64,000 nucleotides of DNA from the NCBI GenBank assembly GCA_021324575.1, contig JAJPIW010000012.1, positions 1 to 64,000 of the forward strand, in the 5' to 3' direction. This DNA comes from Intrasporangiaceae bacterium. Its GTDB lineage: Bacteria; Actinomycetota; Actinomycetes; Actinomycetales; Dermatophilaceae. The position numbers and the translations under genes were made by a program. Numbering within the stretch: the stretch's first letter is position 1; every line of letters begins with the position of its first letter. The notes under the pieces were generated by a model. That model worked only from the letters and a program-made list of their open reading frames with translations. It had not been told where the DNA came from and ran no database searches. Shown here piece after piece: positions 1 through 64,000 of this stretch.

Positions 1-513
1 ATGGCCGACCAGGCCCGCACCATCCGGATCCCGGTGCACATGGTCGAGGTCATCAACAAGCTGGCCCGGGTCCAGCGCCAGATGCTCCAGGACCTTGGCC
101 GCGAGCCCACCCCGGAGGAGCTGGCCCGCGAGCTGGACATGACGCCCGAGAAGGTCGTCGAGGTCCAGAAGTACGGCCGTGAGCCGATCTCGCTGCACAC
201 GCCCCTCGGTGAGGACGGCGACTCCGAGTTCGGTGACCTCATCGAGGACTCCGAGGCCGTCGTCCCCGCCGACGCCGTGAGCTTCACGCTCCTCCAGGAG
301 CAGCTGCACTCGGTTCTCGACACGCTCTCCGAGCGCGAGGCGGGTGTGGTGTCGATGCGCTTCGGTCTCACCGACGGCCAGCCCAAGACCCTCGACGAGA
401 TCGGCAAGGTCTACGGCGTGACCCGTGAGCGGATCCGTCAGATCGAGTCCAAGACGATGAGCAAGCTGCGCCACCCGAGCCGCAGCCAGGCGCTTCGCGA
501 CTACCTGGACTGA
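1..513 (+). CDS. sigA: RNA polymerase primary sigma factor, C-terminal part (5' end outside window)
   Basis: C-terminal 170 residues of the group 1 sigma factor that directs RNA polymerase to housekeeping promoters. The window opens inside the gene: the first ATG is an internal methionine near region 2.4/3.0 ([16 protein letters not shown]), so the real start and regions 1-2 lie upstream of base 1. Region 3 follows (residues about 15-95, with the 3.2 loop [18 protein letters not shown]). Region 4 (about 100-165) has the -35 recognition helix [13 protein letters not shown] and the usual ending LRDYLD. A strong hairpin terminator begins two bases after the stop, and the next genes run convergently. 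Family identity is near certain. Group 1 rather than group 2 rests on the typical region 3.2/4 sequence, because the N-terminus is missing. Confidence 0.96.
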
Positions 514-515
514 CC

Positions 516-565
516 GGCATACGACAGGGCCCCCGTCATCAAAGGGGGGGGCCCTGTCGTATGCC
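516..565 (+). terminator. sigA terminator built from an inverted pair of the GGCATAC word
   Basis: Perfect 19-bp inverted repeat: arm 516-534 (GGCATACGACAGGG plus five C) pairs with 547-565, with a 12-base loop. It starts two bases after the sigA stop. No U tract follows, as is common for actinobacterial hairpin terminators. Each arm ends in one copy of the GGCATAC/GTATGCC word that is over-represented across the window. Confidence 0.9.
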
Positions 566-607
566 GCGCCGGCTCGCGTCCGCTGTGGGAGCCAGACGCC
601 CCCCGTT

Positions 608-694
608 CCTAACCTTTGCCAGCAGAGCCTGGCTCGCTCAGCGCAGGGTGCAACCTCTGCTGAGTGGCCTAACCTTTGCTAGCAGAGGTTGGTT
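608..694. repeat. Direct and inverted repeats between convergent sigA and the transglutaminase gene
   Basis: A direct repeat beginning CCTAACCTTTGC occurs at 608 and again at 668, exactly 60 bases apart, with related sequence (AGCAGAG then TGG) after it. The second copy is part of a near-perfect 20-base palindrome at 671-690 (AACCTTTGCTAGCAGAGGTT, one mismatched pair). A 10-base inverted copy of its right half lies at 652-661. The element sits at the 3' ends of two convergent genes, so it may be the minus-strand operon's terminator. No gene is seen in 566-693. Confidence 0.55.
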
Positions 695-3042
695 CACCGG
701 GGCCGGAGGGAGCGGAGCCGAGCCCAAGCGCGCCGGGGCGCGTCGAGGGCTCCGTTGACTGCCTCGTGGACCTGGCTGCGCCCGTCGGTCGGGTTGAGGA
801 AGGCCCGCAGCCGGGCGGTGCGAGGGCGGGTCCGGCCGACGCTGGTGACCACGAGGCGCATCGGCTCGGCGAGGTCACCCACGGCGGTGCCCGGTGGGGC
901 ATACCGGGCCCGCTCGATGGTGTCGACCACCGACCGCATCCGCTCGACGTCGTCGGGTGCCAGGTGTGCGCTCACAGCCACGAACCTGCCGGTCTGCCGG
1001 GGCGTGCTCCCGGTCGGTGGCCGCACGCCGAGGTCGTCGATCTGGCGAAGAAAGGCCTGCCAGTGGGCCTCCGCGACGGCCGCCTCGTCGTCGGCCGCGG
1101 CGAGTGCCCGTCGACGGCGCAGGACCGCGGCGGTGGGGAGCGCGAGCGACCCGAGCACACCGAGTACGAGGATGACGAGCAGCCAGGCCCAGGCCGGCAA
1201 GGTGCTGATCCCGTGCCACAGCCGCGCGGGCGCCGACGCGGTGGGGGCCAGTGCGCCGGGGTTGTCCTGCTGGTTGTCGATCGGGCGACGGCTCGGCGTG
1301 GGGGTGCTCGTGGCGCCGCCGGTAGCGGTGGTGGACGGACCCGACGGGCCGTCCGCGATGGGTGCTGTCGTGTAGATAGGGGCGGCGCCGGACCGGCCGC
1401 TCGGGGTCGGCTCGAAGCGCAGCCAGCCCAGACCCGGGAACCACAGCTCGGGCCAGGCGTGGGCGTCGGTGCCCCGGACGGTCCACGACGTGTCCGGCTC
1501 GAGGTGCCCGGGCAGGAAGCCGATCGCCATCCGGGCCGGTATGCCGCGGTTGCGGGCCATCATGATCATCGCCGTCGCGAACTGGATGCAGTAGCCCTGC
1601 TTGGTCCGCAGGAACGACACGAGCGGGTCGTTGTTGTCCGCGGGAACCGGCTTGGCAAGGGTGAGGGAGTAGATGAACTGCGCGCTGCGCAGGTAGCCCT
1701 GGATGGCTCGGGCCGTGTCTATCGCGCTGGACCCCTTGGGGATGATCTTGGCCAGGGTGGCCTCCAGCGTCGGACGTGAGGACTCGTCGATGTCCAGGTC
1801 GTTCTGGGTCACACCGGAGTCGGCCAGGGTGACCGGGTCGGTCTGGGCGTTCTGCAGCTGCTGCTCGGTGGGTTGGACCCGCACGTAGCGGATCGTGTAC
1901 TTGTCCGGTCGACGGTCGGGCCGGATGCTGCCGTTGAGCGTTGCCGACCATTTCACCTTGCCCAGGTCCGCCGCCACGGCCGGTGCGGGCGCGGCCAGCT
2001 GCGGCGGGTCGACCCGGTTGCCGGTCACCGTGATCTGGGCCGTGGAGAGGGTCACGCCCGCCGACACGCCGAGGGGCGGGTTGTCCAGCTGGGCGGTGTC
2101 CGGGTCGACCGCGGTGTCGGTCCACTCACCCTGGGAGTAGTCGGTGAGCACCGCCACCCGAAGCGGGTCCACCGCGCCGGCGTTGCTGCGATAGCTGAGG
2201 ACCACGCCCTGGCTCTGGCTGTGCAGGCTCCGGGCGATGTCCAGGCTGCTGTTCAGGCGGCTGGTACCGCCGACACCCACCCCGCCGGGCGCGCGGCCCA
2301 GCCCGGAGAGCAGGAAGCGGGCCGGGAGGTGCGGGAGCACCATGGGCAGGACGACGGCGAGCGCGAGGGAGGCGACGGCCAGGCGACGCCCGGCCGAGAC
2401 GAAGCGCAGCGCGAGCGCGTCCTCCGTGGTCCGGCGTTCGGCGCCGTCGAGGGGGATGGGGGTGCCCCAACCCCGGAACGCGGTGGTGCCCTGTCGCCCG
2501 ACGAGCAGCACCCAGAACCCGGCGGCGAAGAGGAAGTACCAGATGGCCAGGCCGGTCCCGGAGTTGGCCGCGGAGAGCAGGTATGCCGTGAGCAGCGGCA
2601 GGCCGGCGGCGGCAGGGGAGCGGCGGGTCACCCCGATGGTGTCCACGACGACCGCGACCAGGGTCACGATGAGGGTGACGCCGAGGACGACGCCCCGCGT
2701 GGCGGGGGCCGGTGCCGAGTAGCTCTGGATGGTGCCCAGGGCATCGGAGAGGAGGTTCGCCCAGCCCTGGAACATCTCGAAGGTGGGCAGGGCGTGCCAC
2801 AGGTGCCCGCGGCCGTGGAGCCAGGAGACGACGAGCATCCCGACGACCAGCTGGACCATCGGCACCGGCCAGCGCAGCGGGGTGGCCGCCCGGACCGCAG
2901 CGCCGGTCGCCGCGACGACGAGCAGCATGAGCAGGCAGGGCCGGACGAAGTCGATGGGCGTGAACAGGCTGGTGAGGGGGAGCAGCGCCGCGGCCGTCGC
3001 CAGGGCGGCCAGCGCTGCGTCGACCGGGCGGGCCCGCCTCAT
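694..3042 (-). CDS. TgpA-like membrane transglutaminase-domain protein
   Basis: Membrane protein of 782 residues with the TgpA layout. An N-terminal block of hydrophobic helices fills roughly residues 10-240. An extracytoplasmic region then leads to a transglutaminase-like core with the catalytic Cys in KQGYCIQFATA (about residue 483) and His/Asp in GTDAHAWPE (about 527). A Pro/Thr linker, one more membrane helix near 618 and a cytoplasmic tail of the DUF4129 type follow. The start is the ATG overlapping the DUF58 stop as ATGA; the longer in-frame extension upstream is low-complexity Arg/Pro sequence over the DUF58 gene. It is the last gene of a moxR-DUF58-tgpA operon, an arrangement common in bacteria and thought to act on envelope proteins. 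The exact substrate is unknown. Confidence 0.88.
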   Translation of the reverse strand: MRRARPVDAALAALATAAALLPLTSLFTPIDFVRPCLLMLLVVAATGAAVRAATPLRWPVPMVQLVVGMLVVSWLHGRGHLWHALPTFEMFQGWANLLSDALGTIQSYSAPAPATRGVVLGVTLIVTLVAVVVDTIGVTRRSPAAAGLPLLTAYLLSAANSGTGLAIWYFLFAAGFWVLLVGRQGTTAFRGWGTPIPLDGAERRTTEDALALRFVSAGRRLAVASLALAVVLPMVLPHLPARFLLSGLGRAPGGVGVGGTSRLNSSLDIARSLHSQSQGVVLSYRSNAGAVDPLRVAVLTDYSQGEWTDTAVDPDTAQLDNPPLGVSAGVTLSTAQITVTGNRVDPPQLAAPAPAVAADLGKVKWSATLNGSIRPDRRPDKYTIRYVRVQPTEQQLQNAQTDPVTLADSGVTQNDLDIDESSRPTLEATLAKIIPKGSSAIDTARAIQGYLRSAQFIYSLTLAKPVPADNNDPLVSFLRTKQGYCIQFATAMIMMARNRGIPARMAIGFLPGHLEPDTSWTVRGTDAHAWPELWFPGLGWLRFEPTPSGRSGAAPIYTTAPIADGPSGPSTTATGGATSTPTPSRRPIDNQQDNPGALAPTASAPARLWHGISTLPAWAWLLVILVLGVLGSLALPTAAVLRRRRALAAADDEAAVAEAHWQAFLRQIDDLGVRPPTGSTPRQTGRFVAVSAHLAPDDVERMRSVVDTIERARYAPPGTAVGDLAEPMRLVVTSVGRTRPRTARLRAFLNPTDGRSQVHEAVNGALDAPRRAWARLRSLRPR

Positions 3043-4298
3043 GACGCGACCACCAGCCGCTCGCCGCCGGTGAGCCGTCGCCACGCATCGCCGATCGGCT
3101 GGTCGGGCGTCACCTGGAGGACCGACCAGCCGGCACCCAGCAGCGCAGCGGTGGTGGCTCCGGCCCGGTCCAGGCCCTGCTGGGAGCTGGCCCTTCGCGT
3201 ACGAGCCGGTTCCATGACGAAGGCGAGCGCGTTGGACCCGGGCTGGCGCAGGGCCGACATCGACCGCGCCGACTCCTCGTCCATGGCCGAGGTGATGGCG
3301 ACGACGAGTCCGCCGGAGGCAGTGACCACACTGGCCGAGCGCAGTACGTCGGTGAACGACTCGTCCCGCGTGGGGGCGGCCTCGGCGAGGGTGTCCAGGG
3401 CCGAGTCCAGGTCGACGTCCTGGTGGACGTGCGCCTCGGACCGGGGCTGGGCGGTGAGGAGGTGCACGGCATACCCGAGGTCGAGGAGGTGACTGACGAC
3501 CGAGGCCGCGGCCGTCACCGACCACTCAAAGGTCGCCGAGGCGCCATGGCCCTGGTGGCCGCTGGCGCGGGTGTCGAGCAGGACGGTGGCCCGGCGGGTT
3601 GCCGGGCGGTCCTCCTGGCGGACCATGAGCTCCCCGGTGCGTGCGGTCGCCGGCCAGTGGATGCGCCGCAGATCGTCACCGTCGCGGTACTCACGGATCG
3701 ACACGTCGTCCTCGCCGTGGAGGGCGACCATGTGCGGGATGTTGCCCTCGGCGCCCAGCTCGGACCCCTTGGCCCGGGCGGCCGACAACGGCACGACCCG
3801 GGGGAGGACGATGATCTCGATGTGGCCGGTGTGGGCGGCCGTCCGCGTCGTGAGCCCGAACGGGTCGCGGACGCGGATCCCGAGTGGCCCGAGGCGGTGT
3901 CGGCCCCGGGTGTGCGATCGGACCGTGTAGCGCATGACCCGACGCTCACCCTCGCGCATCGAGGGGATGACGAAGCGGGGCCGGTCACCGAGGGGGTAGT
4001 CGACGAACTCCTCGGCCATGATGAGCGGCGTCCGCTGTCGGTCCGGGTTCTCGACCGCGAGGGTGACCAGGCACGGCTCGTCGATGTGCACCCGCGCCGG
4101 CATCACCTGACGATCGACGACGAGGGCCAGGCGGTGCCGCCTGGTGAGGGCGGCGGCGATGAGCGGCAAGGTCATGGCCAGCACCCCGATGCGGGTCAGG
4201 TCGAGGACCCCGAGGGCGAGCCCGGCGAGCAGCATGACCACACCTGCGGCGAGGAACGCCTTGCCGCGTGTCGTGAGGAAGTCGGTGAGCCGGCCCAC
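3039..4298 (-). CDS. DUF58 domain protein, partner of MoxR ATPase
   Basis: Protein of 419 residues. Two hydrophobic helices lie near residues 12-60. A beta-rich region follows, then the DUF58 core with its signature VSIREYRDGDDLRRIHW and TARTGELMVRQ, followed by a von Willebrand A-like part (VLLDTRASG). DUF58 proteins are usually encoded directly after a MoxR AAA+ ATPase and are presumed to be its client or effector at the membrane; that applies here because the moxR stop lies 15 bases upstream. The 3' end overlaps the transglutaminase start by four bases, indicating translational coupling. The molecular role is not established. Confidence 0.9.
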   Translation of the reverse strand: MGRLTDFLTTRGKAFLAAGVVMLLAGLALGVLDLTRIGVLAMTLPLIAAALTRRHRLALVVDRQVMPARVHIDEPCLVTLAVENPDRQRTPLIMAEEFVDYPLGDRPRFVIPSMREGERRVMRYTVRSHTRGRHRLGPLGIRVRDPFGLTTRTAAHTGHIEIIVLPRVVPLSAARAKGSELGAEGNIPHMVALHGEDDVSIREYRDGDDLRRIHWPATARTGELMVRQEDRPATRRATVLLDTRASGHQGHGASATFEWSVTAAASVVSHLLDLGYAVHLLTAQPRSEAHVHQDVDLDSALDTLAEAAPTRDESFTDVLRSASVVTASGGLVVAITSAMDEESARSMSALRQPGSNALAFVMEPARTRRASSQQGLDRAGATTAALLGAGWSVLQVTPDQPIGDAWRRLTGGERLVVAS

Positions 4299-4313
4299 GG
4301 TCGGGTGCCGCGG

Positions 4314-5339
<1,026 letters not shown>

Positions 5340-5790
5340 CGCTGTCTGCCTCCTCGTCGTGGCCGGGGTCGCACGCCCTCGTATGCCGTGGTCCCCGGAT
5401 CTTGATCTTGCCTCACCCAAGCCGAACGTCGGGCCGGACTCGGGCAACAAATCGACATCGAACCGTCCTGGGCCGCCGCCGAGCGTCCCGGGCGGCAGGT
5501 CACCGGGCCATTCCCACTTCGCTCCACCGGGCTCCCGCGGCCCCTCGGTGGCCGCGGTCCACCCCCGGGTGAGGGCTGCGACCCAGCCGGGGAGAGGCGA
5601 CTCGAGCGGCATACGGCGAGGATTTGCCCCACTTCGCACCACGGCCACTGACCTGCGAAAACAGTGAGAAAAACTCGAAAAAAGCCCTCTGAGGTGGCCG
5701 ATGGTGACGGGTGGTGGGGTAAAGTGGAGGAACGCGGATCAGACGGGAGCCGCGCGACGGGATCGGGTCGATGGGTGGAGGTGAGTGCCG
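5340..5790. other. Divergent moxR/mraZ intergenic region
   Basis: 451 bases without a convincing gene. It must hold the moxR promoter (minus strand) and the mraZ promoter (plus strand). Two GGCATAC/GTATGCC words occur (5381, 5608). A short A-rich stretch at about 5655-5690 stands out in this GC-rich sequence. The mraZ-proximal part holds a TAAAGT -10-like hexamer at 5720-5725 and GTG-based direct repeats, annotated separately. I could not identify a clear moxR promoter. Confidence 0.6.
5704..5729 (+). promoter_or_regulatory. Candidate MraZ-binding repeats over the mraZ -10 region
   Basis: Three GTG-type hexamers at a 10-base period: GTGACG (5704), GTGGGG (5714) and GTGGAG (5724). MraZ proteins of other bacteria bind direct GTGGG-type repeats with a 10-base period upstream of their own operon. 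A -10-like TAAAGT (5720-5725) lies between the last two repeats, so binding would block initiation. No good -35 hexamer is visible. Autoregulation is therefore an inference. Confidence 0.55.
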
Positions 5791-6420: not shown

Positions 6421-7404
6421 ATGACCTCACGCGGAGCGGCCGCCGAGCGGCACGTCCCGGTGCTTCGCGACCGCGTCCTGGACCTCCTCGCCCCCGCCCT
6501 CACCACGGCGGGGGCGGTCTACGTCGACGGCACCCTGGGCATGGGCGGCCACGCCGAGGCCGTCCTCCAGCGGTTCCCCGAAGCGGTGGTCGTGGGCATC
6601 GACCGCGACACCGAGGCGCTGCAGCTCGCGGCCGAGCGGCTGGCTCCGTATGCCGGTCGCCTCCACCTCGTCCACGCCGTCTACGACGAGGTCGGCGACG
6701 TACTCGACGACCTGGGGCACCCGGCATACGACGCCGGGCTCTTCGACCTCGGCGTCTCCTCCTTGCAGCTGGACGAGGCGGACCGTGGGTTCGCCTACAG
6801 CCAGGACGCACCGCTGGACATGCGGATGGACCAGACCACCGGGCCGACCGCCGCCGAGGTCCTCAACACGTATGCCGCGCCCGACCTGGAGCGCGTGCTG
6901 CGCGACTTCGGGGAGGAGCGGTTCGCCCGCAAGATCGCTGTGACCATCGTCCGGGAGCGAGAGGCCGAGCCGTTCAGCAGCTCCGCGCGGCTCGTCGAGC
7001 TGCTCCGCCGGGCGGTGCCGGCGCAGAGCCAGCGGACCGGCGGCAACCCGGCAAAGCGCACCTTCCAGGCGCTGCGGATCGAGGTCAACGCCGAGCTGTC
7101 GGTCTGGGCCCGGGCCGTCGACGTCGCCGTCGAGCGGCTGGCCGTCGGCGGGCGGCTGGCCGTGCTGTCGTACCACTCGCTGGAGGACCGGATCACCAAG
7201 CGCGCCTTCGCAGCCGGGCTGACCAGCTCCACCCCGGCCGGGCTGCCGGTCGACCTGCCCGAGCGCGCGGCATACCTGCGCTCCCTCACCCGTGGCGCCG
7301 AGCTCGCCGACCAGGCCGAGCAGGCCGCCAACCCCCGATCCGCCTCGGTCCGGCTCCGGGCCGTCGAACGCATCCGCACCACCACGAAGGGAACCACCCG
7401 ATGA
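6421..7404 (+). CDS. rsmH: 16S rRNA (cytosine1402-N4)-methyltransferase
   Basis: RsmH (MraW), the SAM-dependent enzyme that N4-methylates C1402 in the 16S rRNA decoding centre. 327 residues, normal length. It opens with [14 protein letters not shown]. The SAM loop [12 protein letters not shown] is near residues 37-48. The acidic motif IDRDTEAL and the downstream motifs [27 protein letters not shown] and [12 protein letters not shown] are all present. It follows mraZ as in most bacteria, and its stop overlaps the ftsL start as ATGA. Confidence 0.97.
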
Positions 7405-10311: not shown

Positions 10312-11901
10312 ATGTCCCTTCCTCGGCCCAGCCCTGCCCTCCAGCTCTCGCTCCACGAACTCCTCGCCGGCGTGCCCGCCCTGGTGTCGCCAACGGTCGA
10401 CGGCGACGCCTCCTCCGTGGTCGGTGGCGTCAGCCTCGACTCCCGTGGGGTCCAGCCGGGCGACCTGTATGCCGCCCTCCCGGGCGCCCACGCGCACGGC
10501 GCCTCGTTCGCCGCCGCCGCCGTCGCCGCCGGAGCCGTTGCGGTGCTCACCGACCCGGCCGGCCTGGCCCTGGTGCGGGGCGCGGGCGTCCAGGTGCCCG
10601 TCGTCGTCGTCGAGGACCCCCGCGCCGTCCTCGGCGAGGTCGCCAGCCACCTCTACGGCACCGTCGGGACCGGGCTGAAGCTCGTCGGGGTGACGGGGAC
10701 CAACGGCAAGACGACGACGGCATACCTCATCACCTCCGCCCTCGAGGCGCTCGGCGAGGAGACCGGCCTGATCGGCACCGTCGAGACCCGGGTCGGCGCC
10801 GAGCGGATCAAGAGCGTGCGAACCACCCCGGAGGCCACCGACCTCCACGCCCTGCTCGCCGTCATGGCCGAGCGCGGCCTGCACACCTGCGTCATGGAGG
10901 TGTCCAGCCACGCGCTGAGCCTCCACCGGGTCGACGGGGTGGTCTACGACGTCGCCCTCTTCACCAACCTGTCCCAGGACCACCTCGACTTCCACCCGAC
11001 GATGCGCGACTACTTCGAGGCCAAGGCCTCGCTCTTCACACCAGTACGGTGTCGCCAGGGCATCGTCTGCGTCGACGACGAGTGGGGCCGCGAGCTGGCC
11101 TCTGCCGCAACGGTTCCCGTGACGACACTGAGCTCGGACCCGGCCGTTCCCGCCGACTGGCGGGTGACGCCGGACGATGCCGACGTCTCACTGTTCACCC
11201 TCGCCGGCACGGACACCACCCTGCACCTGCGCTCGGCGCTTCCGGGGGAGTTCAACCGGGTCAACACGGCGATGGCCGCGCTCACCCTGCTCCTGCTCGG
11301 CCGGTCGAACGCCGAGGTCGAGCAGGCGATCCTCGCCGACCCGCACGTGCCAGGGCGGATGGAGAGGGTCGACCCGACGTGCGGGACGATCGAAGCGCTA
11401 CCGCTGGCCGTCGTCGACTACGCACACACACCCGAGGCGGTGGAGGCCGCGCTGACCGCCTTGCGCCCCACGACGGTCGGGGGCCTCGTCGTCGTCCTCG
11501 GCGCCGGCGGTGACCGCGACCGCGGCAAGCGGGCCGCCATGGGCCGGGCAGCGGCCCAGGGCGCCGACATCGTCATCGTCACCGACGACAACCCGCGCAC
11601 CGAGGACCCAGCGGCGATCCGGTCCGCGATCCTGGCCGGTGCCCGGGCCGCCTACCCGGTCAATGCGCTGTCGGTCGAAGAGATCGCCGACCGGTCCCAC
11701 GCCATCCGCCGAGCCGTCGAGCAGGCCGTGGCCAGCGGCCCCGGGGCCACGGTGGCCGTCGTCGGCAAGGGCCATGAGACCGGGCAGGAGATCGCCGGCG
11801 TCGTCCACCCCTTCGATGACCGTGTCGCGTTGCGCGCAGCCCTCGACGAGACCGCCCGCGGACTCACCCCGACGCCGAGCTCGGCGGAGCAGCCGTCGTG
11901 A
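10312..11901 (+). CDS. murE: UDP-MurNAc-tripeptide synthetase MurE
   Basis: Mur ligase that adds the third stem-peptide residue to UDP-MurNAc-L-Ala-D-Glu using ATP. 529 residues in the three-domain Mur layout. The ATP loop is TGTNGKTTT (about residues 127-135), the central domain has the HxxD-type segment SQDHLDFHPTM, and the C-terminal domain carries DNPRTED (about 425). In this family DNPR marks diaminopimelate-specific enzymes rather than lysine-specific ones, so a DAP-type wall is expected. The gene lies 12 bases after ftsI, and its TGA overlaps the murF GTG start. Confidence 0.97.
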   Translation: MSLPRPSPALQLSLHELLAGVPALVSPTVDGDASSVVGGVSLDSRGVQPGDLYAALPGAHAHGASFAAAAVAAGAVAVLTDPAGLALVRGAGVQVPVVVVEDPRAVLGEVASHLYGTVGTGLKLVGVTGTNGKTTTAYLITSALEALGEETGLIGTVETRVGAERIKSVRTTPEATDLHALLAVMAERGLHTCVMEVSSHALSLHRVDGVVYDVALFTNLSQDHLDFHPTMRDYFEAKASLFTPVRCRQGIVCVDDEWGRELASAATVPVTTLSSDPAVPADWRVTPDDADVSLFTLAGTDTTLHLRSALPGEFNRVNTAMAALTLLLLGRSNAEVEQAILADPHVPGRMERVDPTCGTIEALPLAVVDYAHTPEAVEAALTALRPTTVGGLVVVLGAGGDRDRGKRAAMGRAAAQGADIVIVTDDNPRTEDPAAIRSAILAGARAAYPVNALSVEEIADRSHAIRRAVEQAVASGPGATVAVVGKGHETGQEIAGVVHPFDDRVALRAALDETARGLTPTPSSAEQPS

Positions 11902-40598: not shown

Positions 40599-40760
40599 CG
40601 GCGCCGGCCGTGGACCCCGACCTGGGGGGAGAGGCCGGCGCCCGGCATACGACGACCTCCACCACGATCTCGGGACTCCCGGCCCGTCTGTCGATCGAGG
40701 TCGCGGCCTTCGCCTGGTGGGCGGGCGACCAGGTCGGCACGGTAGTCTCTCGACCCAGGC

Positions 40761-52118: not shown

Positions 52119-52549
52119 GCGAGCTCATGTTCGCCGAGGACCTCATTCCGGGTACGGCATACGACCTCGGGGAGTACGTCCTCACCACTGCCGACATTGT
52201 CGGGTTCGCCCGTCAGTGGGACCCCCAGGAGTTCCACACGGACGAGTCGACGACCGGCTTCTTCGGGGGAGTGGTCGCCAGTGGTCTGCACTCCATGGCC
52301 GTCCTGCAAAGGCTCTCGGTGCTCAATGCCTACTGCGACTGGGCGGTGCTCGCCGGTCGTCGGATCCGTGAGGCCAGCTTCCTCGCTCCGGCCCGGCCCG
52401 GCATGACGCTGCGCGCCTGCCTGGTCATCGACCGCGTCGACTTCCGCGACGACGAGAGGGCATTGGTCACCGTCAGCAGCACCCTGACCGCGGGCGGCAC
52501 GGTCATTCTCGCGACCGTCAACGAGCTCTACGTCCTGCGCCGGCGGTGA
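52115..52549 (+). CDS. MaoC-like hot-dog hydratase
   Basis: Single hot-dog protein of 144 residues with the (R)-enoyl-CoA hydratase dyad in FARQWDPQEFHTDE (Asp about 36, His about 41) and the helix GGVVASGLHSMAVLQRL. MaoC proteins hydrate enoyl-CoA or mesaconyl-CoA-type thioesters. TTG 52115 overlaps the TetR stop (TTGA); ATG 52127 is a plausible alternative. In this setting it could hydrate an unsaturated CoA ester formed by the CaiB transferase (inference). Confidence 0.86.
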   Translation: MSELMFAEDLIPGTAYDLGEYVLTTADIVGFARQWDPQEFHTDESTTGFFGGVVASGLHSMAVLQRLSVLNAYCDWAVLAGRRIREASFLAPARPGMTLRACLVIDRVDFRDDERALVTVSSTLTAGGTVILATVNELYVLRRR

Positions 52550-52654: not shown

Positions 52655-54757
52655 ATGGCGTACGTCATTGGCGTTGACGTCGGAGGCACCTTCACGGACG
52701 CGGTCCTGGATGACGGCGACGGAAGGGTCGTCGCCGCGAAGTCACCGTCCACCCCGCCCGACTACTCCCAGGGCGTCATGGACGCCATCGCCCAGCTGGC
52801 GGAGAACCTGGGCGAGCCACTCGACGTCATGTTGGGAAACACCCACCACATCGCCCACGGGACGACGTCGTCGCTCAACGCGCTGGTGATGGGGAAGGTG
52901 CCTCCCGTCGGCTTCCTGACGACCTTCGGCCACCGCGACTCGATCTACATCATGAACGTGGAGGGGCGCTACCTGGGTTCGGCGCCGCACGAGCTGCAGG
53001 ACGTCATGGGTCAGACCAAGACCCACCTGATCCCCAAGAGCCAGGCGTTCGAGATCGCTGAGCGGATCGACCACGCGGGCAAGGTCGTCGTCGGGCTGGA
53101 CGAGCAGTCGGTGCGCGACTCGGTCGGCGCGCTGCTCGCGCAGGGGATCCGGTCGATGGCCGTCTCGCTGCTGTGGTCGTTCCGCAACCCGGTCCACGAG
53201 CTGCGCGTGCGCGAGATCATCCACGAGATGGACCCGGACGTCTTCGTGGCGCTCTCCCACGAGGTGAGTCCTCGAATTCGCGAGTTCGCGCGCTCCTCGA
53301 CCACGATCATGAGCGCCCAGATCGGCCCTGGTCTGCGCGACTACCTCGGTGAGCTCGAGGCCCGACTCGCTGATGCTGGTCTGCGGGGGCCCCTGCTCGT
53401 GATGCAGAGCAACGGCGGGGCCATCGCCGCGGCGGAGGCGCCGGCGACAGCGATCAGCACCATCGGCTCAGTGCTCACCGGCGGTGTCATCGGGGCGGTG
53501 AACCTCGGCAACCAGCTCGGGCACAAGAACATCATCTCGACCGACGTCGGCGGCACCACCTTCCTCGTCGGGCTCATCGTCGGCGGCGAGCCGGTGCGCG
53601 CCAGCCAGACCATCATCAACCACCACCCGATCAACGTGCCGACGCTCGAGGTGCACGCCATCGGGTCCGGAGGCGGCGCCATCGCCTGGATCGACCGCGG
53701 CGGGAACCTGCAGGTGGGTCCGCGTTCGGCGCAGTCGGTCCCCGGCCCCGCCTGCTACGGCGCGGGCGGCCTGGAGCCGACGAACACCGACGCCAACCTG
53801 GTGCTGGGCATCCTTCCCGAGACCGGTCTGGTCGGCGGACGAAAGCAGCTCGATGTCGAGGCCGCGCGGGAGGCGATCCGAACCCACATCGCCGAGCCCC
53901 TCGGGCTCTCCGTCGAAGACGCGGCGGCGGCCATCTACGCGATCCAGAACGCGCAGACCGGCGACCTCCTGCGCAAGACCGTGGTCGAGGCCGGGCGGGA
54001 CCCTCGCGACTTCGTGCTCTACGCATTCGGTGGTGCCGGCCCGGCGTACTGCGCGGCATACGCGGCGGAGGTCGGCATCCGTGAGGTGATCGTGCCGCTC
54101 GGCCCGGTCGCCTCCGGCTTCTCGGCCTTCGGCCTCGCATCCTCCGACGTCGTCCTGGCGCAGGAGCTCTCGGACCCGGGACTGATGCCGGTGTCATCGG
54201 AGGTGACCCAACAGCACTTCGAGGAGCTCGAACGGCAGCTCGGCAAGGCCCTGGAACGTCAGGGCCTCACCTTCAGCGAGGTCCACTTCCTGCGCGAGAT
54301 GGACCTGCGGTACACCGCCCAGCTGGCCGAGGTCAGCGTCACCGTTCCCTCGGGCTCCCTGACGCCGGCCGACATGGCCAACGCGATGAACGAGTTCGAG
54401 CGCAAGTACGCCGGCCTGTACGGCGAGGGCACGGGGTTCTCGGCGGCTGGCATCCAGTCGATCACCCTCCGGGTGCAGGCCACCGGCGTGCTGCCCTTCG
54501 AGCCCAAGATGCCCGAGCTGGACAAGGCATCGGGCGCCGACCCGTGCGACGCCCAGGTCGCTACCCGACGCGTGTGCCTGGACTCCCGGGTGGGCTACGT
54601 GGATACCTCGATCTACGACTACCGCAAGCTGCTCTCCGGCCACGTGATCACGGGCCCCGCGGTCATCGAGGTGGAGACCACGACCGTGGTCGTCCCCCCG
54701 AAGATGACTGGCACTGTCGACCACCTCGGCAACCTCAACATCGTCACCCGCGGCTGA
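52655..54757 (+). CDS. Hydantoinase A / oxoprolinase / acetone carboxylase beta-type ATPase subunit
   Basis: HyuA-family subunit of 700 residues, with the ATP-binding fold of ASKHA type. The N-terminal HydA_N part has VIGVDVGGTFTDAVLDD and ATIAHGTT-like HHIAHGTTSSLNAL; the central hydantoinase_A domain contains HEVSPRIREFARSSTT, LLVMQSNGGAIAAAEA, ISTDVGGTTFLVGLI, AIGSGGGAIAW, SVPGPACYGAGG and FGGAGPAYC. The family includes 5-oxoprolinase, N-methylhydantoinase, acetone carboxylase and acetophenone carboxylase subunits, all using ATP to phosphorylate a carbonyl or enol oxygen. ATG 52655 has AAAGGAG six bases upstream; ATG/GTG upstream extends only into the promoter. Partner of the next gene. 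Confidence 0.9.
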   Translation: MAYVIGVDVGGTFTDAVLDDGDGRVVAAKSPSTPPDYSQGVMDAIAQLAENLGEPLDVMLGNTHHIAHGTTSSLNALVMGKVPPVGFLTTFGHRDSIYIMNVEGRYLGSAPHELQDVMGQTKTHLIPKSQAFEIAERIDHAGKVVVGLDEQSVRDSVGALLAQGIRSMAVSLLWSFRNPVHELRVREIIHEMDPDVFVALSHEVSPRIREFARSSTTIMSAQIGPGLRDYLGELEARLADAGLRGPLLVMQSNGGAIAAAEAPATAISTIGSVLTGGVIGAVNLGNQLGHKNIISTDVGGTTFLVGLIVGGEPVRASQTIINHHPINVPTLEVHAIGSGGGAIAWIDRGGNLQVGPRSAQSVPGPACYGAGGLEPTNTDANLVLGILPETGLVGGRKQLDVEAAREAIRTHIAEPLGLSVEDAAAAIYAIQNAQTGDLLRKTVVEAGRDPRDFVLYAFGGAGPAYCAAYAAEVGIREVIVPLGPVASGFSAFGLASSDVVLAQELSDPGLMPVSSEVTQQHFEELERQLGKALERQGLTFSEVHFLREMDLRYTAQLAEVSVTVPSGSLTPADMANAMNEFERKYAGLYGEGTGFSAAGIQSITLRVQATGVLPFEPKMPELDKASGADPCDAQVATRRVCLDSRVGYVDTSIYDYRKLLSGHVITGPAVIEVETTTVVVPPKMTGTVDHLGNLNIVTRG

Positions 54758-54779: not shown

Positions 54780-57098
54780 ATGCCAGCTATGACCATCCCG
54801 GGCTCGGAACGCTTCTCGAGTCGGCCGGTCGACCCCGACGTCCTGATCAAGGGCCTCGACGGCATCCTGCCGGTCCACACGGTCACCCAGGAGCAGATCG
54901 ACGATCTTGACCCCCTCACCTACGAGGTGATCCGCCACCGCCTGTGGTCGGTGACCAACGAGATGGGCGAGACCCTCAAGCGCATGTCGGGTTCGCCGAT
55001 CGTCACCGACGCGAACGACTTCGACTTCGCGATCTGCGACGAGGTGGGGCAGGAGGTCCAGGTCGGTCTGTACAACTGCATGCTCGCGGGCGCCATCGAC
55101 CTGGCCATCTACTGGACGCTGCAGAACAGGGTGAAGAACCCGGGCGTCCACGAGGGGGACATGTTCCTCGCGAATGACCCGTGGGTCGGCGGCGGCATGC
55201 ACCAGAACGACGTGATCGTGTTCCAGCCGATCTTCCACGACGGATTGCTGTTCGGTTGGACGTCGGCGGTCTGTCACGAGCCCGACCTGGGCGGCGTCGG
55301 ACTGGGTTCGTTCAGCCCGTCCGCCACGGACGTGTTCTCCGAGGCACTCCCCACACCACCCATCAAGGTGGTGCGCGACTTCGAGGTCCAGGAGGACGTC
55401 GCTGACGCCTGGGTGCGTCGTTCCCGGGTCCCGCTGTTGGTGGGCTTGGACATGCGCGCCAAGGTCGGCGCCAACACGGTGGGTCGCAAGCGGCTGCTCG
55501 AGGTCATCGAGATCTACGGCGCGGACACCGTCAAGGCGGTGATGAAGCGGATGATGAACGACGCCGAGGGCCGCCTGCGGGGCAAGCTCCGGAGCCTGCC
55601 CGACGGCACCTGGTCCACGTCCGGCTACCAGGACCAGTCGCACACGGGCGATCGGGGCGTCCACAAGATCCAGCTGAAGATGACCAAGGTCGAGGACCAC
55701 CTGACCTTCGACTTCACCGGAACCGACGAGCAGAGCGGTGTCATCAACTGCACGTATGCCGGTATGCGCGGCGGAGCGATGCTCGCCATCATGCCCATGC
55801 TCGCCGACGACATCCCGTGGGCGGCCGGCGGTCTGATGCGCTGCTTCGACCTGGTCGCCGACGAAGGCTCCATCGTCAACGCCACCTATCCGGCCGCCGT
55901 CAGTCGCGCGCCGATCGGGCCTGCGTGGGCGCTCGGGCAGCTGGTCGCCGAGTGCCTGAGCCAGATGATGGACCGGACCGTCGAGTTCCGCGACCGGGTG
56001 CAGGCAGCCTGCTGCGGCACCTTCGACACGGCCGTGGTGGCCGGCCTGGACCAGCGCGGACCGTTCCCGGTGCCGTTCCTCAACATCGTCATGGACTCGG
56101 TCGCCGCCGGCTACGGTGCGCGCCCGAAGACCGACGGCATGGACACCGGTGGAGTGTTCCCGATCCCGATGGGCCGTCTCCCGGACGTCGAGATGACCGA
56201 GTACCTGTACCCGCTCATGACGGTGTGGAGGCGCGAGGAGCCCGACACCGGTGGACCCGGGCGACGGCGCGGCGGACTGAGCGGCTCGGCTGCATTGATC
56301 ACCTACGGAACTGACTTCCCGGTGGGACTCGTGGTGGCCTCGGCAGGCAAGGGTGTCTCGCAGAACGGCGGGCTCGCCGGCGGCTACCCGGGCAACACCG
56401 CGGTCGGCATCGTGGCGCGGAACACCGGCGTCAAGGACGGGTTCGCCCAGGGCAAGCTGCCGTTCGACCTCGCCTCGCTGGCCGGTGACCAGGAGCTCCA
56501 GCAGTGCTACGGGGAGACCTACATCGCTCCTGGGGACGCTCTCTACCTGCACTGGCAGAGTGGTGGCGGCTACGGCGACCCGTTGTTGCGTGACCCGCAG
56601 CTGGTTGCGCACGACCTGGCTGAGGGCAAGGTGACCCTCGCCGGGGCCTCGGGTTCATACGGTGTGGTCATCGATGACGGGCAGGTGGACGTGGCGGCCA
56701 CCGAGGCGCTGCGGGCCGAGGTCAAGCAGGAGCGGATGTCGCGCTCGACGGCGCCCGCGCGCGACTCGGGCAACAGCTATGAGCCGGGCTCGGGCAAGCG
56801 GATCGACGACAACCTGGTCGCCGTCGACTCCGGTGGCGTCGACGTCGTCGCGTGCGCGCACTGCGGCCACGAGCTGGGCAACCCCCGCACCGGCGCGTCC
56901 CTCAACCTGGCCTTCTTCGAGGGCCCGACCGCGTTGGCCGGACCACACGTGACGGCGCAACCCGAGCTGTACGTCGATGAGACGGTCGTCTTCCGGCAGC
57001 TGTGCTGCCCGAGCTGCTTCACCGCCGTCTACTCCGGCGTGGTGCCGTCCTCGCACGTGGACCACGTGCTGGACCTCGATCGCTACCTCACCGTCTGA
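54780..57098 (+). CDS. Hydantoinase B / acetone carboxylase alpha-type subunit fused to a zinc-ribbon domain
   Basis: HyuB-family subunit of 772 residues. Residues about 35-590 form the hydantoinase_B domain with LTYEVIRHRLWSVTNEMG, NDFDFAICDEVG, LANDPWVGGGMHQNDV (metal or substrate loop), DFTGTDEQSGVINCTY and GGGYGDPLLRDP. The last 90 or so residues add CAHCGHELGN and CCPSCF, two Cys pairs of a zinc ribbon, resembling the separate small gamma subunit (AcxC type) of acetone carboxylase. Such a fusion points to a ketone or enol carboxylase rather than a simple hydantoinase (inference). ATG 54780 has GAGGAA about six bases upstream. A very strong hairpin ends the operon. Confidence 0.88.
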   Translation: MPAMTIPGSERFSSRPVDPDVLIKGLDGILPVHTVTQEQIDDLDPLTYEVIRHRLWSVTNEMGETLKRMSGSPIVTDANDFDFAICDEVGQEVQVGLYNCMLAGAIDLAIYWTLQNRVKNPGVHEGDMFLANDPWVGGGMHQNDVIVFQPIFHDGLLFGWTSAVCHEPDLGGVGLGSFSPSATDVFSEALPTPPIKVVRDFEVQEDVADAWVRRSRVPLLVGLDMRAKVGANTVGRKRLLEVIEIYGADTVKAVMKRMMNDAEGRLRGKLRSLPDGTWSTSGYQDQSHTGDRGVHKIQLKMTKVEDHLTFDFTGTDEQSGVINCTYAGMRGGAMLAIMPMLADDIPWAAGGLMRCFDLVADEGSIVNATYPAAVSRAPIGPAWALGQLVAECLSQMMDRTVEFRDRVQAACCGTFDTAVVAGLDQRGPFPVPFLNIVMDSVAAGYGARPKTDGMDTGGVFPIPMGRLPDVEMTEYLYPLMTVWRREEPDTGGPGRRRGGLSGSAALITYGTDFPVGLVVASAGKGVSQNGGLAGGYPGNTAVGIVARNTGVKDGFAQGKLPFDLASLAGDQELQQCYGETYIAPGDALYLHWQSGGGYGDPLLRDPQLVAHDLAEGKVTLAGASGSYGVVIDDGQVDVAATEALRAEVKQERMSRSTAPARDSGNSYEPGSGKRIDDNLVAVDSGGVDVVACAHCGHELGNPRTGASLNLAFFEGPTALAGPHVTAQPELYVDETVVFRQLCCPSCFTAVYSGVVPSSHVDHVLDLDRYLTV

Positions 57099-57180: not shown

Positions 57181-57209
57181 TTGACTTTTCGTCTTCGACG
57201 TCCAAGAAT
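57181..57209 (+). promoter_or_regulatory. Candidate promoter of the isomerase operon (leaderless)
   Basis: TTGACT (57181-57186), 17-base spacer, AAGAAT (57204-57209). The expected start of transcription falls at about 57216-57217, at the ATG chosen for the next gene, and no ribosome site precedes it. Confidence 0.45.
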
Positions 57210-57216
57210 GGTTGTC

Positions 57217-58005
57217 ATGAGCGCGGTCGCCGTCAGCAGACACCGCATCGGGCTGGTGGTCCCGAGCTCCAACGTCACGGTGGAGACCGAGATCCCGCAG
57301 ATCCTGGGCCGGCATACGGCCGCGCGCTTCTCCTACCACTCGACCCGGATGCGGATGTCGAAGGTCTCGCCGGAACAGCTCGCCGCCATGAACGCCCAAC
57401 GGGAGCGCTGCATCATCGAGATCGCCGACGCCGGTCCGGACGTCATCCTGTACGGGTGCCTGGTCGCGCTGATGTCGGCGGGCCTCGCTGAGCACCGGCG
57501 GGTCGAGGGCCTCGTCGCCGAGCAGCTCGCCACCGGTGGCTCAGCAGCCAAGGTGCGCTCGAGCGCCGGTGCACTCCTGGAGGCTCTGCGCGCCCTGGGC
57601 GCCCAGCGGATCGCGCTCGTGATGCCCTACGCGCGTCCGCTCGCGGAGCGGGTCGTCGCATACCTGGAGCACGAGGGTTTCGACGTGCACGACTGGAGGG
57701 CGCTGGAGGTCGAGGACAACCACGCTGTCGCCCGAATCCCGGCTGCCGACGTGATGGGGGCAGCACGGTCGCTGGACCGCGAAGGCGTCGACGCCCTGGT
57801 GATCTCCTGCTGCGTGCAGATGCCGTCACTGGACCTGGTCGAGACGGCCGAGCAGGAGCTCGGGCTGCCGGTGCTCTCGGCCGCGACGGCGGGGGCCTAC
57901 AGCATCCTGCGGGCCTGCGGTCTCCCGGTCGACATCCCGTATGCCGGCTCGCTGCTGCGCATCGACGCACTTCACCACGCCGAGCTCCGCTCAGGCAGCC
58001 AATGA
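57217..58005 (+). CDS. Maleate cis-trans isomerase-like (Asp/Glu racemase superfamily)
   Basis: Cofactor-free isomerase of 262 residues. It aligns over its length with maleate isomerases: RIGLVVPSSNVTVETEIPQIL, FSYHSTRMRMSKVSPEQLAAM and VDALVISCCVQMPSLDLVE. Both catalytic cysteines are present: ILYGCLVALMSAG (about 83) and ISCCVQMPS (about 198); arylmalonate decarboxylases lack the first, so isomerase is favoured. Likely reaction: maleate or a substituted maleate (such as citraconate) to the trans isomer. ATG 57217 is chosen because it matches the promoter spacing; ATG 57208 is in frame nine bases upstream. First gene of an operon running to the CoA transferase. Confidence 0.87.
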   Translation: MSAVAVSRHRIGLVVPSSNVTVETEIPQILGRHTAARFSYHSTRMRMSKVSPEQLAAMNAQRERCIIEIADAGPDVILYGCLVALMSAGLAEHRRVEGLVAEQLATGGSAAKVRSSAGALLEALRALGAQRIALVMPYARPLAERVVAYLEHEGFDVHDWRALEVEDNHAVARIPAADVMGAARSLDREGVDALVISCCVQMPSLDLVETAEQELGLPVLSAATAGAYSILRACGLPVDIPYAGSLLRIDALHHAELRSGSQ

Positions 58006-58036
58006 GCCACGCCCACCCACGAAAGGACGGCCCACG

Positions 58037-60167: not shown

Positions 60168-60169
60168 GC

Positions 60170-61105: not shown

Positions 61106-62324
61106 CGACGTCGGGACGTCAACAACATCGACCGAGCAGCCACTTGCCGGGATCCGTGTCATCGAGCTCGGCAACTACATTGCCGCGCCCATGGCGGGGC
61201 GGCTTCTCGCGGACTTCGGCGCCGAGGTGATCAAGGTGGAGCGCCCCCGAACCGGTGACGAGCTGCGCAGCTGGCGGCTGTACGAGGGCGACACGTCGCT
61301 GCTCTACCGCACCATCAACCGCAACAAGCTGTCCATCGAGCTGGATCTGCGGTCCGACACCGGGCGGCATACGGTGCTCGAGCTGATTGCCGGCGCCGAC
61401 GTCCTGCTCGAGAACTTCCGTCCCGGAACCCTCGACCGGTGGGGGCTGGATGTGCAGACCTTGGCGGCGGCCAACCCGGCCCTGGTCGTGGCGCGCGTGT
61501 CAGCGTTCGGGCAGACCGGGCCGCTGGCTGACCGCGCGGGCTTCGCCGCAGTCGCAGAGGCCTATGGCGGCCTGCGTGAGCTGGTCGGTGAACCGGACCG
61601 ACCGCCGTCCCGGACCGGAGTCTCGATCGGGGACTCGATCGCCGGCCTGTATGCCGCGTTCGGCGTGATGATGTCGCTCTTCGACCGTGAGGCGCGACGT
61701 GGCCAAGGCCTTGAGCCGGTGCCGCCGACCGAGCGGGAGATCGACGTCGCGCTCCACGAGGCCGTCTTCTCGATGATGGAGTCACTGGTCCCGGACTTCT
61801 CGGCCCACGGCGTGCGCCGCGAGCGCGCTGGCGGCCGCATGGAGGGGATCTCCCCGTCCAATGGCTACACCTGCGGTGACGGGTCGAGCGTGGTCATCGC
61901 CGGCAACGGGGACTCGATCTTCGCTCGGTACATGACCGTGATCGGGCGCCCGGACCTCGCGACCGACACCGAGCTGGCCGGGAACGCGGGCCGCTGGGAG
62001 CGTCGGGTCGAGCTCGATGAGGCCATCGGCGCGTGGACGAGCACGTTGTCGCGTGAGGAGGTGCTCTCCCGCCTGCACGCGGCCCAGGTGCCCGCGGGGC
62101 CGATCCACACGGCCGAGGACATCGTCCACGACGCCCAGTTCCGTGCACGGGGGATGGTGCAGGACCTGCCCGTGGATGTCGCCGGCGAGACCCGGCTGGT
62201 CAGCTTCCCCGGGGTCGTCCCCGTGCTCAACGGTGTCTCGGTGCGGGTGCGAAACGTCGGACCGGACCTGGGGGAGCACACCGACCTCGTCCTGAACACG
62301 ATGCTCGGCGGCCCCCGCCCCTAG
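61098..62324 (+). CDS. CaiB/BaiF family (class III) CoA transferase
   Basis: Class III CoA transferase of 408 residues that moves CoA between carboxylic acids through an aspartyl-CoA intermediate. LAGIRVIELGNYIAAPMAGRLLADFGAEVIKVE (split), NRNKLSIELDLRS, VLLENFRPGTLDRWGL and the catalytic Asp in GVSIGDSIAGLYAAF (about 178) are conserved; the tail PAGPIHTAEDIVHDAQFRARGM is typical. GTG 61098 overlaps the lyase gene by eight bases, so the two are translationally coupled. With the lyase it resembles the succinyl-CoA:(R)-citramalate transferase / citramalyl-CoA lyase pair; mesaconate, itaconate or an HMG-like acid are other candidate acceptors. Confidence 0.9.
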   Translation: MPDDVGTSTTSTEQPLAGIRVIELGNYIAAPMAGRLLADFGAEVIKVERPRTGDELRSWRLYEGDTSLLYRTINRNKLSIELDLRSDTGRHTVLELIAGADVLLENFRPGTLDRWGLDVQTLAAANPALVVARVSAFGQTGPLADRAGFAAVAEAYGGLRELVGEPDRPPSRTGVSIGDSIAGLYAAFGVMMSLFDREARRGQGLEPVPPTEREIDVALHEAVFSMMESLVPDFSAHGVRRERAGGRMEGISPSNGYTCGDGSSVVIAGNGDSIFARYMTVIGRPDLATDTELAGNAGRWERRVELDEAIGAWTSTLSREEVLSRLHAAQVPAGPIHTAEDIVHDAQFRARGMVQDLPVDVAGETRLVSFPGVVPVLNGVSVRVRNVGPDLGEHTDLVLNTMLGGPRP

Positions 62325-62382
62325 GCCTCCACCAGGTCCCCGCTGGGCTGGTGATCACCCGGGCAGCTGTGGTCCGACGCAG

Positions 62383-62435
62383 ACGAGTCCGCCCGCGCTG
62401 CCGTTGGGTTGTGCTGGCAGCACGGGCGGACTCGT
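62383..62435. terminator. Bidirectional terminator between the CoA transferase gene and glnA
   Basis: 20-bp inverted repeat with one C-A mismatch (62383-62402 and 62416-62435), 13-base loop. It lies between the ends of two convergent genes (62324 and 62479) and can serve both. No U tract on either side. Confidence 0.85.
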
Positions 62436-62478
62436 TCGGCTCTGACACGACAAAGCCGTCGGTCAGACCGGGTGAATC

Positions 62479-63903
62479 TCAGAGGTCGTAGTACATCTCG
62501 AACTCGTGCGGGTGCGGGCGGAAGCGGATCGGGTCCACCTCGTTCTTGCGCTTCCAGTCGACCCAGGTGGCGATGAGGTCCTCGGTGAACACGTCGCCCT
62601 CGAGCAGGAAGTCGTGGTCGGCCTCCAGGGCGTCCAGCACCTCCGGCAGCGACCCGGGAACCTGCTGGATCGACTCGTGCTCCTCGGGCGGGAGCTCGTA
62701 GAGGTCCTTGTCGACCGGCTCCGGGGGCTCGATCCGGTTCTTGATGCCGTCCAGGCCCGCCATCAGCTGGGCCGCGAAGCACAGGTAGGGGTTCGCCGAC
62801 GGGTCCGGCACGCGGAACTCGATGCGCTTGGCCTTGGGGTTGTCCCCCGTGATCGGGATGCGCACGCAGGCGGAGCGGTTGCGGGCCGAGTAGACCAGGT
62901 TGACCGGGGCCTCGTAGCCGGGGACCAGGCGGTGGTAGGAGTTCACCGTCGGGTTGGTGAAGGCGAGCAGCGCCGGGGCGTGCTTGAGCAGGCCGCCGAT
63001 GTACCAGCGCGCGATGTCGGACAGGCCGCCGTAGCCGCGCTCGTCGTAGAAGAGCGGCTCGCCGTCCTTCCAGAGCGACTGGTGGGTGTGCATGCCGGAG
63101 CCGTTGTCCCCGAAGATCGGCTTGGGCATGAAGGTGGCCGTCTTGCCGTACTCCCAGACGGTGTTCTTGACGACGTACTTGAACTTCATGATGTCGTCGC
63201 CGGACTGGAGCAGGGTGTTGAACCGGTAGTTGATCTCCTGCTGACCGGCCGTGCCCACCTCGTGGTGCGACCGCTCGACGATCAGGCCGACCTCGGCGAG
63301 GTTGAGGCAGATCTTGTCGCGGACGTCGGCGAAGTGGTCGACCGGCGGGACCGGGAAGTAGCCGCCCTTGTAGCGCGTCTTGTAGCCGCGGTTGCCGCCC
63401 TCTTCGACCCGGCCGGTGTTCCACGCGGCCTCGATGGAGTCGATGTAGTAGTACGAGGCGTTGGCCTTGGTCTCGAAGCGCACGTCGTCGAACACGTAGA
63501 ACTCGGCCTCGGCACCGAAGAACGCCGTGTCGCCGATGCCGGTCGACTTCAGGTAGGCCTCGGCCTTGGACGCGATGTTGCGCGGGTCGCGGGAGTACTC
63601 CTCACCGGTGAACGGGTCGACGATGGAGAAGTTCATGATGAGCGTCTTCTCGACACGGAACGGGTCGAGGTAGGCCGTCGTCGGGTCGGGGATGAGCTTC
63701 ATGTCGGACTCGTGGATGGCCTGGAAGCCGCGGATCGAGGACCCGTCGAACATCTGGCCGTTCTTGAAGAAGTCCGCGTCAACCGACTGCGCGGGCACGT
63801 TGAAGTGCTGCATCACGCCGGGCAAGTCGCAGAACCGGATGTCGACGAACTTGACGTCCTCGTCCTTGATGAACGCGAGGACATCGTCAGCGTTGCTGAA
63901 CAA
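62479..63903 (-). CDS. glnA: Type I glutamine synthetase
   Basis: Glutamine synthetase I (GSI-beta type), making glutamine from glutamate, ammonia and ATP as a dodecamer. 474 residues. The start is TTG 63903: AGGAGG lies six bases upstream and it begins [18 protein letters not shown] after the initiator, as in actinobacterial GlnA1. [43 protein letters not shown] and [17 protein letters not shown] are intact. The adenylylation tyrosine is in [10 protein letters not shown] (near 400), so activity should be controlled by GlnE. The preceding 97 bases to the window end contain TAGCCT on the minus strand, a -10 candidate. Confidence 0.97.
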
Positions 63904-64000
63904 TCCAAACCTCCTGATGTGGTTGGGCGCGTGACGCCGGCCCAAGTGCGTTGCCGATGAGGCTAGGGGTCCGCCATTACTCGGTCATGACTCGTGTGTT
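63904..64000 (-). promoter_or_regulatory. glnA upstream region (cut by window end)
   Basis: On the minus strand the region carries AGGAGG six bases before the TTG start and TAGCCT about 57 bases before it, a -10 candidate. No convincing -35 or GlnR site could be recognised in the 97 bases available. Confidence 0.4.

Follow-up and report, generated by a model that had tools for sequence, protein, structure and literature searches.

A probable DNA uptake sequence with lineage-specific dialects in the actinobacterial family Dermatophilaceae

The first 64,000 nucleotides of contig JAJPIW010000012.1 of an Intrasporangiaceae bacterium (assembly GCA_021324575.1, family Dermatophilaceae), referred to here as the window, carry 53 copies of the octamer CGGCATAC/GTATGCCG, 27 on the forward strand and 26 on the reverse. 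Judged from sequence, this word with its soft flanks is probably a tag resembling a DNA uptake sequence (DUS), used by an actinobacterial family capable of natural transformation. A preliminary description of the window had offered three candidates, namely DNA uptake sequences, the cyanobacterial repeat HIP1 and methyltransferase-associated motifs; the uptake sequence fits best because the core is non-palindromic, copies form convergent stem-loop pairs, dialects differ by one base, the word is nearly absent from an inserted mobile element, and its presence is associated with the ATPase gene of a tad-1 locus. We also think it fairly likely that this Gram-positive family has an uptake system of its own that relies on a Tad/Flp pilus and has no fewer than four dialects, which are separated by one or two bases and have switched repeatedly (one genus has two of them), with a Janibacter-like genus that may use the unrelated word CCCCTTCG, and with a tad-1 ATPase gene that has repeatedly been broken by mobile elements.

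Over-representation of the word

The 7-base core of the word occurs 57 times in the window (27 GTATGCC and 30 GGCATAC; GC content 70.1% over 64 kb), compared with a mean of 2.6 and a maximum of 7 in 100 dinucleotide shuffles, and CGGCATAC is the top-ranking octamer of the window against an order-2 Markov null. A recount gave exactly the numbers of the preliminary description, including the 53 copies that share the eighth base. The window lies within contig C100 of a genome of 4.24 Mb in 103 contigs (G000), and its FtsW shares 90% identity with the protein of a Nostocoides sp. metagenome assembly, the matches listed next (57-66%) including Phycicoccus, Ornithinibacter, Tetrasphaera, Terrabacter and Intrasporangium. 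This genome contains 4,724 copies of CGGCATAC (2,348 on the forward strand and 2,376 on the reverse) versus 388 of the reversed-pattern control (202 and 186), and 377 kb of it contain 416 copies where an order-2 Markov model predicts 9.8. The enrichment thus extends beyond the window, the genome being denser overall (1.11/kb) than the window itself (0.83/kb), and many sister genera, not all, are rich in the word.

Genic copies in 477 kb of G000 (genes called with a simple in-house codon-usage caller) number 376, compared with 27.5 +/- 5.2 (maximum 43) in 60 synonymous-codon shuffles and 44.3 +/- 3.9 in 20 shuffles with synonymous swaps that kept the neighbouring bases, which is not strictly a codon-pair shuffle; codon usage and base context are rejected as the cause by both. 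All six placements by frame and strand are occupied, unevenly (8, 123 and 44 copies in sense frames 0, 1 and 2; 15, 16 and 170 in antisense frames 0, 1 and 2), in agreement with the earlier remark that the copies lie in different reading frames. The shuffles, together with the ranking of octamers against synonymous shuffles described below, support the proposal that the word has accumulated or been selected at the DNA level. Intergenic DNA makes up 13% of the sequence and wholly contains 94 of the 482 copies.

The two strands are balanced, with 234 and 248 copies in the 477 kb, and 19 of 21 stretches of G000 have copies on each strand (of the other two, one has a single copy and one has none). 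A polar word of the Chi or KOPS (FtsK-orienting polar sequence) kind, already doubted in the preliminary description, is rejected on the orientations of the copies within these stretches. The flanks are soft: C is favoured at position -2 (250 of 415 copies in G000), T is avoided at -1, and G is favoured directly after the word (289 of 415). Low information in the flanks past about -2 and +1 of the core led to rejection of a repetitive extragenic palindromic (REP) or mobile repeat. A published sequencing primer contains the word, but a sequencing adapter was rejected because the copies occur in ordinary genes between unrelated flanks, and orthologous sites are conserved.

Dialects among the relatives

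In a first survey of 57 genomes (this genome, one congener, 33 further members of the family and 22 from other families in the order), CGGCATAC was high in the family alone, and patchily there. A survey of dialects then covered 163 genomes of the family, at least 90% complete and from 48 genera, in which CGGCATAC, CGGCGTAC and CGGCATCC were counted against reversed controls. According to a tally made by hand with cut-offs chosen by eye, 93 genomes carry CGGCATAC (at least 361 copies), including three of genus g59 that also carry CGGCATCC; nine carry CGGCGTAC, three CGGCATCC alone, and one (G117) CGCCGTAC; CGGCGTAC is weak in two (G060 and G019); and 55 have none of these words. Borderline assignments include five genomes of genera g58 and g15 that were counted for CGGCATAC at just 2.5-3.1 times the control, and, among those classed as having none, G071 and G073 (5.7 and 4.6 times the control at about 0.1/kb) and genus g2, in which CGGCGTAC reaches about 3.5-6 times the control, with no such excess on synonymous shuffling of G002 (12 versus 9.6).

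The words CGGCATAC, CGGCATCC and CGGCGTAC are single-base variants that differ by lineage, and CGCCGTAC is one base from CGGCGTAC and two from CGGCATAC. Each of the three variants can predominate strongly over its control, as illustrated by CGGCATAC in G118 (3,681 versus 184), CGGCGTAC in G120 (4,185 versus 207) and CGGCATCC in G026 (3,949 versus 289). The dialect differs even within a genus: G117 has 19 copies of CGGCATAC, whereas its congeners G118 and G025 have 3,681 and 1,062. The three species of genus g59 hold CGGCATCC and CGGCATAC at once, as if between dialects, with counts over controls of 4,480/262 and 361/42 in G078, 2,195/207 and 1,217/97 in G079, and 2,099/200 and 1,189/85 in G080.

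Ranking of all octamers in sequence samples against synonymous shuffles placed the same words at the top: CGGCATAC in G000 (319 versus 25.5), CGGCATCC in G026 (88 versus 15.2) and G016 (66 versus 17.3), CGGCGTAC in G120 (75 versus 19.5) and G023 (54 versus 13.8), and CGCCGTAC in G117 (112 versus 27.1), where CGGCGTAC stands at 47 versus 20.5. The top octamer of G090 is CCCCTTCG (66 versus 13.9), found in several frames and between genes (L180-L181, L204, L212-L216). The same word is raised in five Janibacter loci (L029, L030, L031, L044 and L062; 31 versus 13.2). A comparable word was sought and not found in samples of 78-112 kb from G136, G057, G002 and G009, G002 having a weak excess of CGGCATCC (32 versus 13.0). 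G136, in which no substitute word was found in 78 kb, is the only wordless one of 28 species in its genus (g71), and its match to the tad-1-like tadA is full length.

At the tad-1 locus, some CGGCATAC sites correspond to CGGCGTAC in genomes of the other dialect, although the sites are few and probably common to several comparisons: those of G074 read CGGCGTAC at 2/2 in G120, at 2/3 each in G121, G058 and G023, and at 0/2 in G024; those of G004 at 2/4 in G120, 2/3 in G121, 2/4 in G058, 0/2 in G023 and 0/3 in G024; and those of G005 at 1/3 in G023 and at none in the other four. Site-for-site exchange with CGGCATCC is weak: L008 and L009, both rich in CGGCATCC, were set against the window and six loci with CGGCATAC (28 comparisons), and the exchange appeared at 0-2 of 3-17 sites.

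Inverted pairs and intergenic copies

None of the four 8-base words (CGGCATAC, CGGCATCC, CGGCGTAC and CGCCGTAC) is self-complementary. Copies are often arranged as inverted pairs. Among 40 pairs less than 70 bp apart in G000, 21 are convergent, 11 divergent, five both-minus and three both-plus; the 17 close pairs in which both copies are fully intergenic comprise nine convergent, three divergent and five tandem. Two convergent pairs of the window are predicted to form stem-loops, one at 515-566 (-52.8 kcal/mol, z -7.6), following a gene that presumably encodes a sigma factor, and one at 37167-37193 (-24.7 kcal/mol, z -4.7). This arrangement is less evident in the other dialects: pairs less than 60 bp apart in G016 are convergent in four cases and divergent in one, and those listed as convergent in G120, G023 and G117 are 12-base palindromes formed by overlapping copies. 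The intergenic share of copies exceeds the intergenic share of sequence in G000 (0.20 versus 0.138), G026 (0.27 versus 0.153), G117 (0.18 versus 0.142) and G090 (0.23 versus 0.109).

Site conservation and mobile DNA

Alignments of the division and cell wall (dcw) region of the window with eight other loci indicate that sites are partially conserved. All eight bases of the window words were kept at 8/15 sites in L001, 9/16 in L003, 7/15 in L013, 7/15 in L002 and 6/13 in L040. Retention of all octamers was 29% in L001, 14% in L003, 14% in L013, 17% in L015, 14% in L024, 18% in L002, 15% in L040 and 13% in L020, and one-mismatch neighbours of the word were kept at 5/14, 2/12, 0/14, 2/7, 2/9, 0/13, 2/12 and 0/11 sites of these loci, respectively. 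A tadA gene of G000 is interrupted by an element of 11,089 bp that carries a serine recombinase; the element has one copy of the word instead of the 12.4 expected from the genome mean (this being a single element), and its flanks have 27 in 28.9 kb.

Candidate competence genes

Homologues of competence genes are present in the family. ComEC was found in 32 of 35 genomes and the broad T2SSE family in all 35, neither of which discriminates; PilM, a marker of the type IVa pilus, was found in two of the 35, and a type IVa pilus is therefore judged unlikely to be the filament. G000 encodes a ComEA-like protein with SLBB and HhH domains and has at least two tad loci, of which type A includes a T2SSE ATPase and a short pilin-like DUF4244 protein, and type B includes TadE and TadG-like proteins recognised by Pfam. 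The type B locus adjoins a gene that we take to be prfB, and two of its products without Pfam matches, named by eye, are presumably TadF-like and Flp-like. Transformation of Micrococcus luteus requires comEA and comEC. The same bacterium possesses two tad loci alongside its orthologues of comEA and comEC, and both tad clusters are required for its transformation, tadB alone not strictly (PMC4322843). Compared by eye, the N-termini of the M. luteus pilins (PMC6370729) are like those of type A for Flp and like those of type B for TadE and TadF, and type B is therefore labelled tad-1-like.

With the type B TadA as query (E <= 1e-60), 150 of the 163 genomes were matched. Eleven of the 13 genomes without an intact tad-1 tadA, from seven genera, are wordless, so that loss of tad-1 goes with absence of the word (11/2 against 44/106; Fisher p=1.3e-4 with no correction for kinship, two weak genomes being entered as word-bearing). 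The tad-1-like tadA of G000 is itself split by the 11 kb serine-recombinase element (L153:9224-20000 and L154:1-1506, contig C43). Partial or split tadA matches that break near residues 194-235 are also seen in G175, G188, G114, G143, G158 and G166, of which G175, G143 and G158 are single-contig assemblies; some of the other partial matches may be contig ends. The pattern suggests that insertions recur at one site of this probable competence gene. Unrelated genes follow tadC, where flp, tadE and tadF would be expected, in G117 (L187), G059 (L194), G190 (L203) and G026 (L166), the first of them in G190 being serine-recombinase-like by eye.

A proposed mechanism and its alternatives

In the mechanism that we propose, a Tad/Flp-type competence pilus would bind free DNA in competent cells, ComEA and ComEC would pass the bound DNA inward, and recombination would follow. 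If a receptor located at the pilus or close to it favoured DNA bearing the word, word-bearing alleles would enter the chromosome more often and the word would accumulate. A change of receptor specificity in a lineage would allow its sites to drift to a new one-base dialect, and loss of the machinery would allow the word to decay.

Several results weigh against this mechanism. By the hand tally, 44 of the 150 genomes that match tad-1 tadA are wordless (genus g66, whose single tested genome has another word, accounts for 15), and therefore tad-1 is not sufficient. Conversely, the word is present in G140, whose tadA matches are distant (38-39% identity), and in G145, which has just fragments of tadA with up to 69% identity. 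Because its tad-1 tadA is split, the strain of the window may not transform now. In trees of TadE, TadF-like and TadG-like proteins the sequences do not group by dialect (30 of 34 loci, without a usable copy from G117, in which the within-genus switch occurred, or from G059, G190 and G026). Conservation of the word is weak in three of the aligned loci (2/5 sites in L015, 1/8 in L024 and 0/9 in L020). Close pairs in G026 are more often divergent than convergent (five versus two at less than 60 bp), copies in G120 are not enriched between genes (0.10 versus 0.143 of sequence), and the palindrome CGTACG arises in both CGTAC dialects when G follows, with overlapping palindromic copies occurring. 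No report of natural transformation in the Dermatophilaceae or Intrasporangiaceae was found among the matches listed in the open-access literature.

The main rival, which we consider unlikely, is a HIP1-like repeat, maintained by an orphan methyltransferase and methylation-dependent mismatch repair, with dialects arising by change of methylation specificity. HIP1 is likewise an over-represented octamer, some cyanobacteria have alternate HIPs with matching methyltransferases (PMC4390886), and the overlapping palindromic copies in the CGGCGTAC and CGCCGTAC dialects would suit such a repeat; however, the HIPs are palindromic according to the same source, whereas CGGCATAC, CGGCATCC and CCCCTTCG are not, and methylation by itself predicts neither the convergent stem-loop pairs nor the absence of the word upon loss of tad-1. 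A site bound by a protein of the nucleoid, of replication or of segregation, selected for chromosome organisation, would explain why all sizeable stretches examined contain copies, coding and intergenic alike, but it is quite improbable given that strand polarity is absent, that thousands of sites switch dialect between related genera, and that whole genera are wordless.

A bias of mutation or repair might have turned near-words into the word with no uptake system involved. In its favour, CGGCGTAC is depleted in genomes with strong CGGCATAC (25 versus 62.3 on synonymous shuffling in G000; 33 versus a control of 160 in G134), as are 15 of the 24 one-mismatch neighbours of CGGCATAC in the 377 kb of G000. 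The ratio of observed to expected counts for these neighbours varies from 0 to about 3, and is highest where counts are small; their summed depletion is mild (261 versus 291), far below the approximately 400 surplus copies of the word. Many sites are also kept between species at about 75% identity, and the eight-base context is raised 12-fold against the synonymous null and 42-fold against the Markov null, beyond what context-dependent mutation is known to produce; we therefore regard such a bias as very improbable.

Comparison with known systems

The uptake signal sequences (USS) of the Pasteurellaceae, AAGTGCGGT, have a density near one per kb. Like the actinobacterial word, the USS is an abundant tag with dialects by species (PMC5031613), but it is an unrelated word of another phylum. 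The DUS of the Neisseriaceae (ATGCCGTCTGAA and its dialects) resembles the actinobacterial word in its hundreds to thousands of copies, its lineage dialects, the rarity of deviations from it, and its inverted pairs, which are tied to terminators there (PMC3630211, PMC5031613). The actinobacterial word differs in having another sequence with an 8-base core, in another phylum at 70% GC, with PilM absent from 33 of 35 genomes and Tad/Flp-like genes instead, and with one dialect difference within a genus. The two tad loci, comEA and comEC of the Flp/Tad competence system of M. luteus all have likely counterparts in G000; for M. luteus no uptake sequence is reported in the available parts of two sources (PMC4322843, PMC6370729). 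The cyanobacterial HIP1 and alternate HIPs are similar as strongly over-represented octamers with alternate versions by lineage, but differ in being palindromic and tied to methyltransferases (PMC4390886).

Sequence-specific DNA uptake has been placed in two families, the Pasteurellaceae and Neisseriaceae (PMC5031613), none is said to have been reported for mycobacteria (PMC10526031), and no report of an actinobacterial uptake sequence was found among the matches listed in the open-access literature. If the proposed reading is true, the word would be a third, independent case of sequence-specific uptake, in another phylum and with Tad instead of type IVa pilus genes, and self-tagging of DNA would be something that evolves repeatedly. 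Relatives that differ in dialect, the genus with two dialects and the difference within a genus would then constitute a natural experiment on a receptor and thousands of sites that change together. The findings point to a probable competence system in an environmental actinobacterial family.

Copies in the window

Exact matches to CGGCATAC, in window coordinates
Position	Strand	Remark
515..522	+	first arm of convergent intergenic pair with 559, downstream of gene ending at 513
559..566	-	second stem-loop arm, pairs with 515
1539..1546	-	
2581..2588	-	
3467..3474	+	
5381..5388	-	
5607..5614	+	
6648..6655	-	
6722..6729	+	
6870..6877	-	
7268..7275	+	
10467..10474	-	
10718..10725	+	
11951..11958	+	
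13201..13208	+	
13539..13546	+	
14672..14679	-	
15560..15567	+	
17534..17541	+	
17921..17928	-	
17945..17952	-	
19203..19210	-	
19825..19832	+	
22093..22100	-	
23025..23032	-	
23295..23302	+	
27334..27341	+	
29497..29504	+	
29975..29982	-	
30853..30860	+	
31625..31632	-	
32344..32351	-	
33351..33358	+	
33544..33551	-	
34102..34109	-	
34287..34294	-	
34810..34817	+	
36646..36653	+	
37167..37174	+	first arm of convergent pair with 37186, within called gene
37186..37193	-	second arm, pairs with 37167
38204..38211	+	
40643..40650	+	
40869..40876	-	
41972..41979	-	
47750..47757	+	
49386..49393	-	
52155..52162	+	
54054..54061	+	
55754..55761	-	
57310..57317	+	
57939..57946	-	
61365..61372	+	
61649..61656	-	

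Rfam and tRNA scans of the window gave no matches. Five sites that had been cited as recruiting the rare ATA codon are all GGCATAC, and the coordinates given for two of them (8911 and 11952) are right, but the other three lie at 17535, 23296 and 47751 instead of 17538, 23297 and 47752; the GGCATAC at 8911 is outside the 53 copies of CGGCATAC. The first 42 kb of the window, which from their translations we take to contain genes of cell wall synthesis, division and replication, hold 44 copies of the word, and the last 22 kb, presumably catabolic, hold nine.

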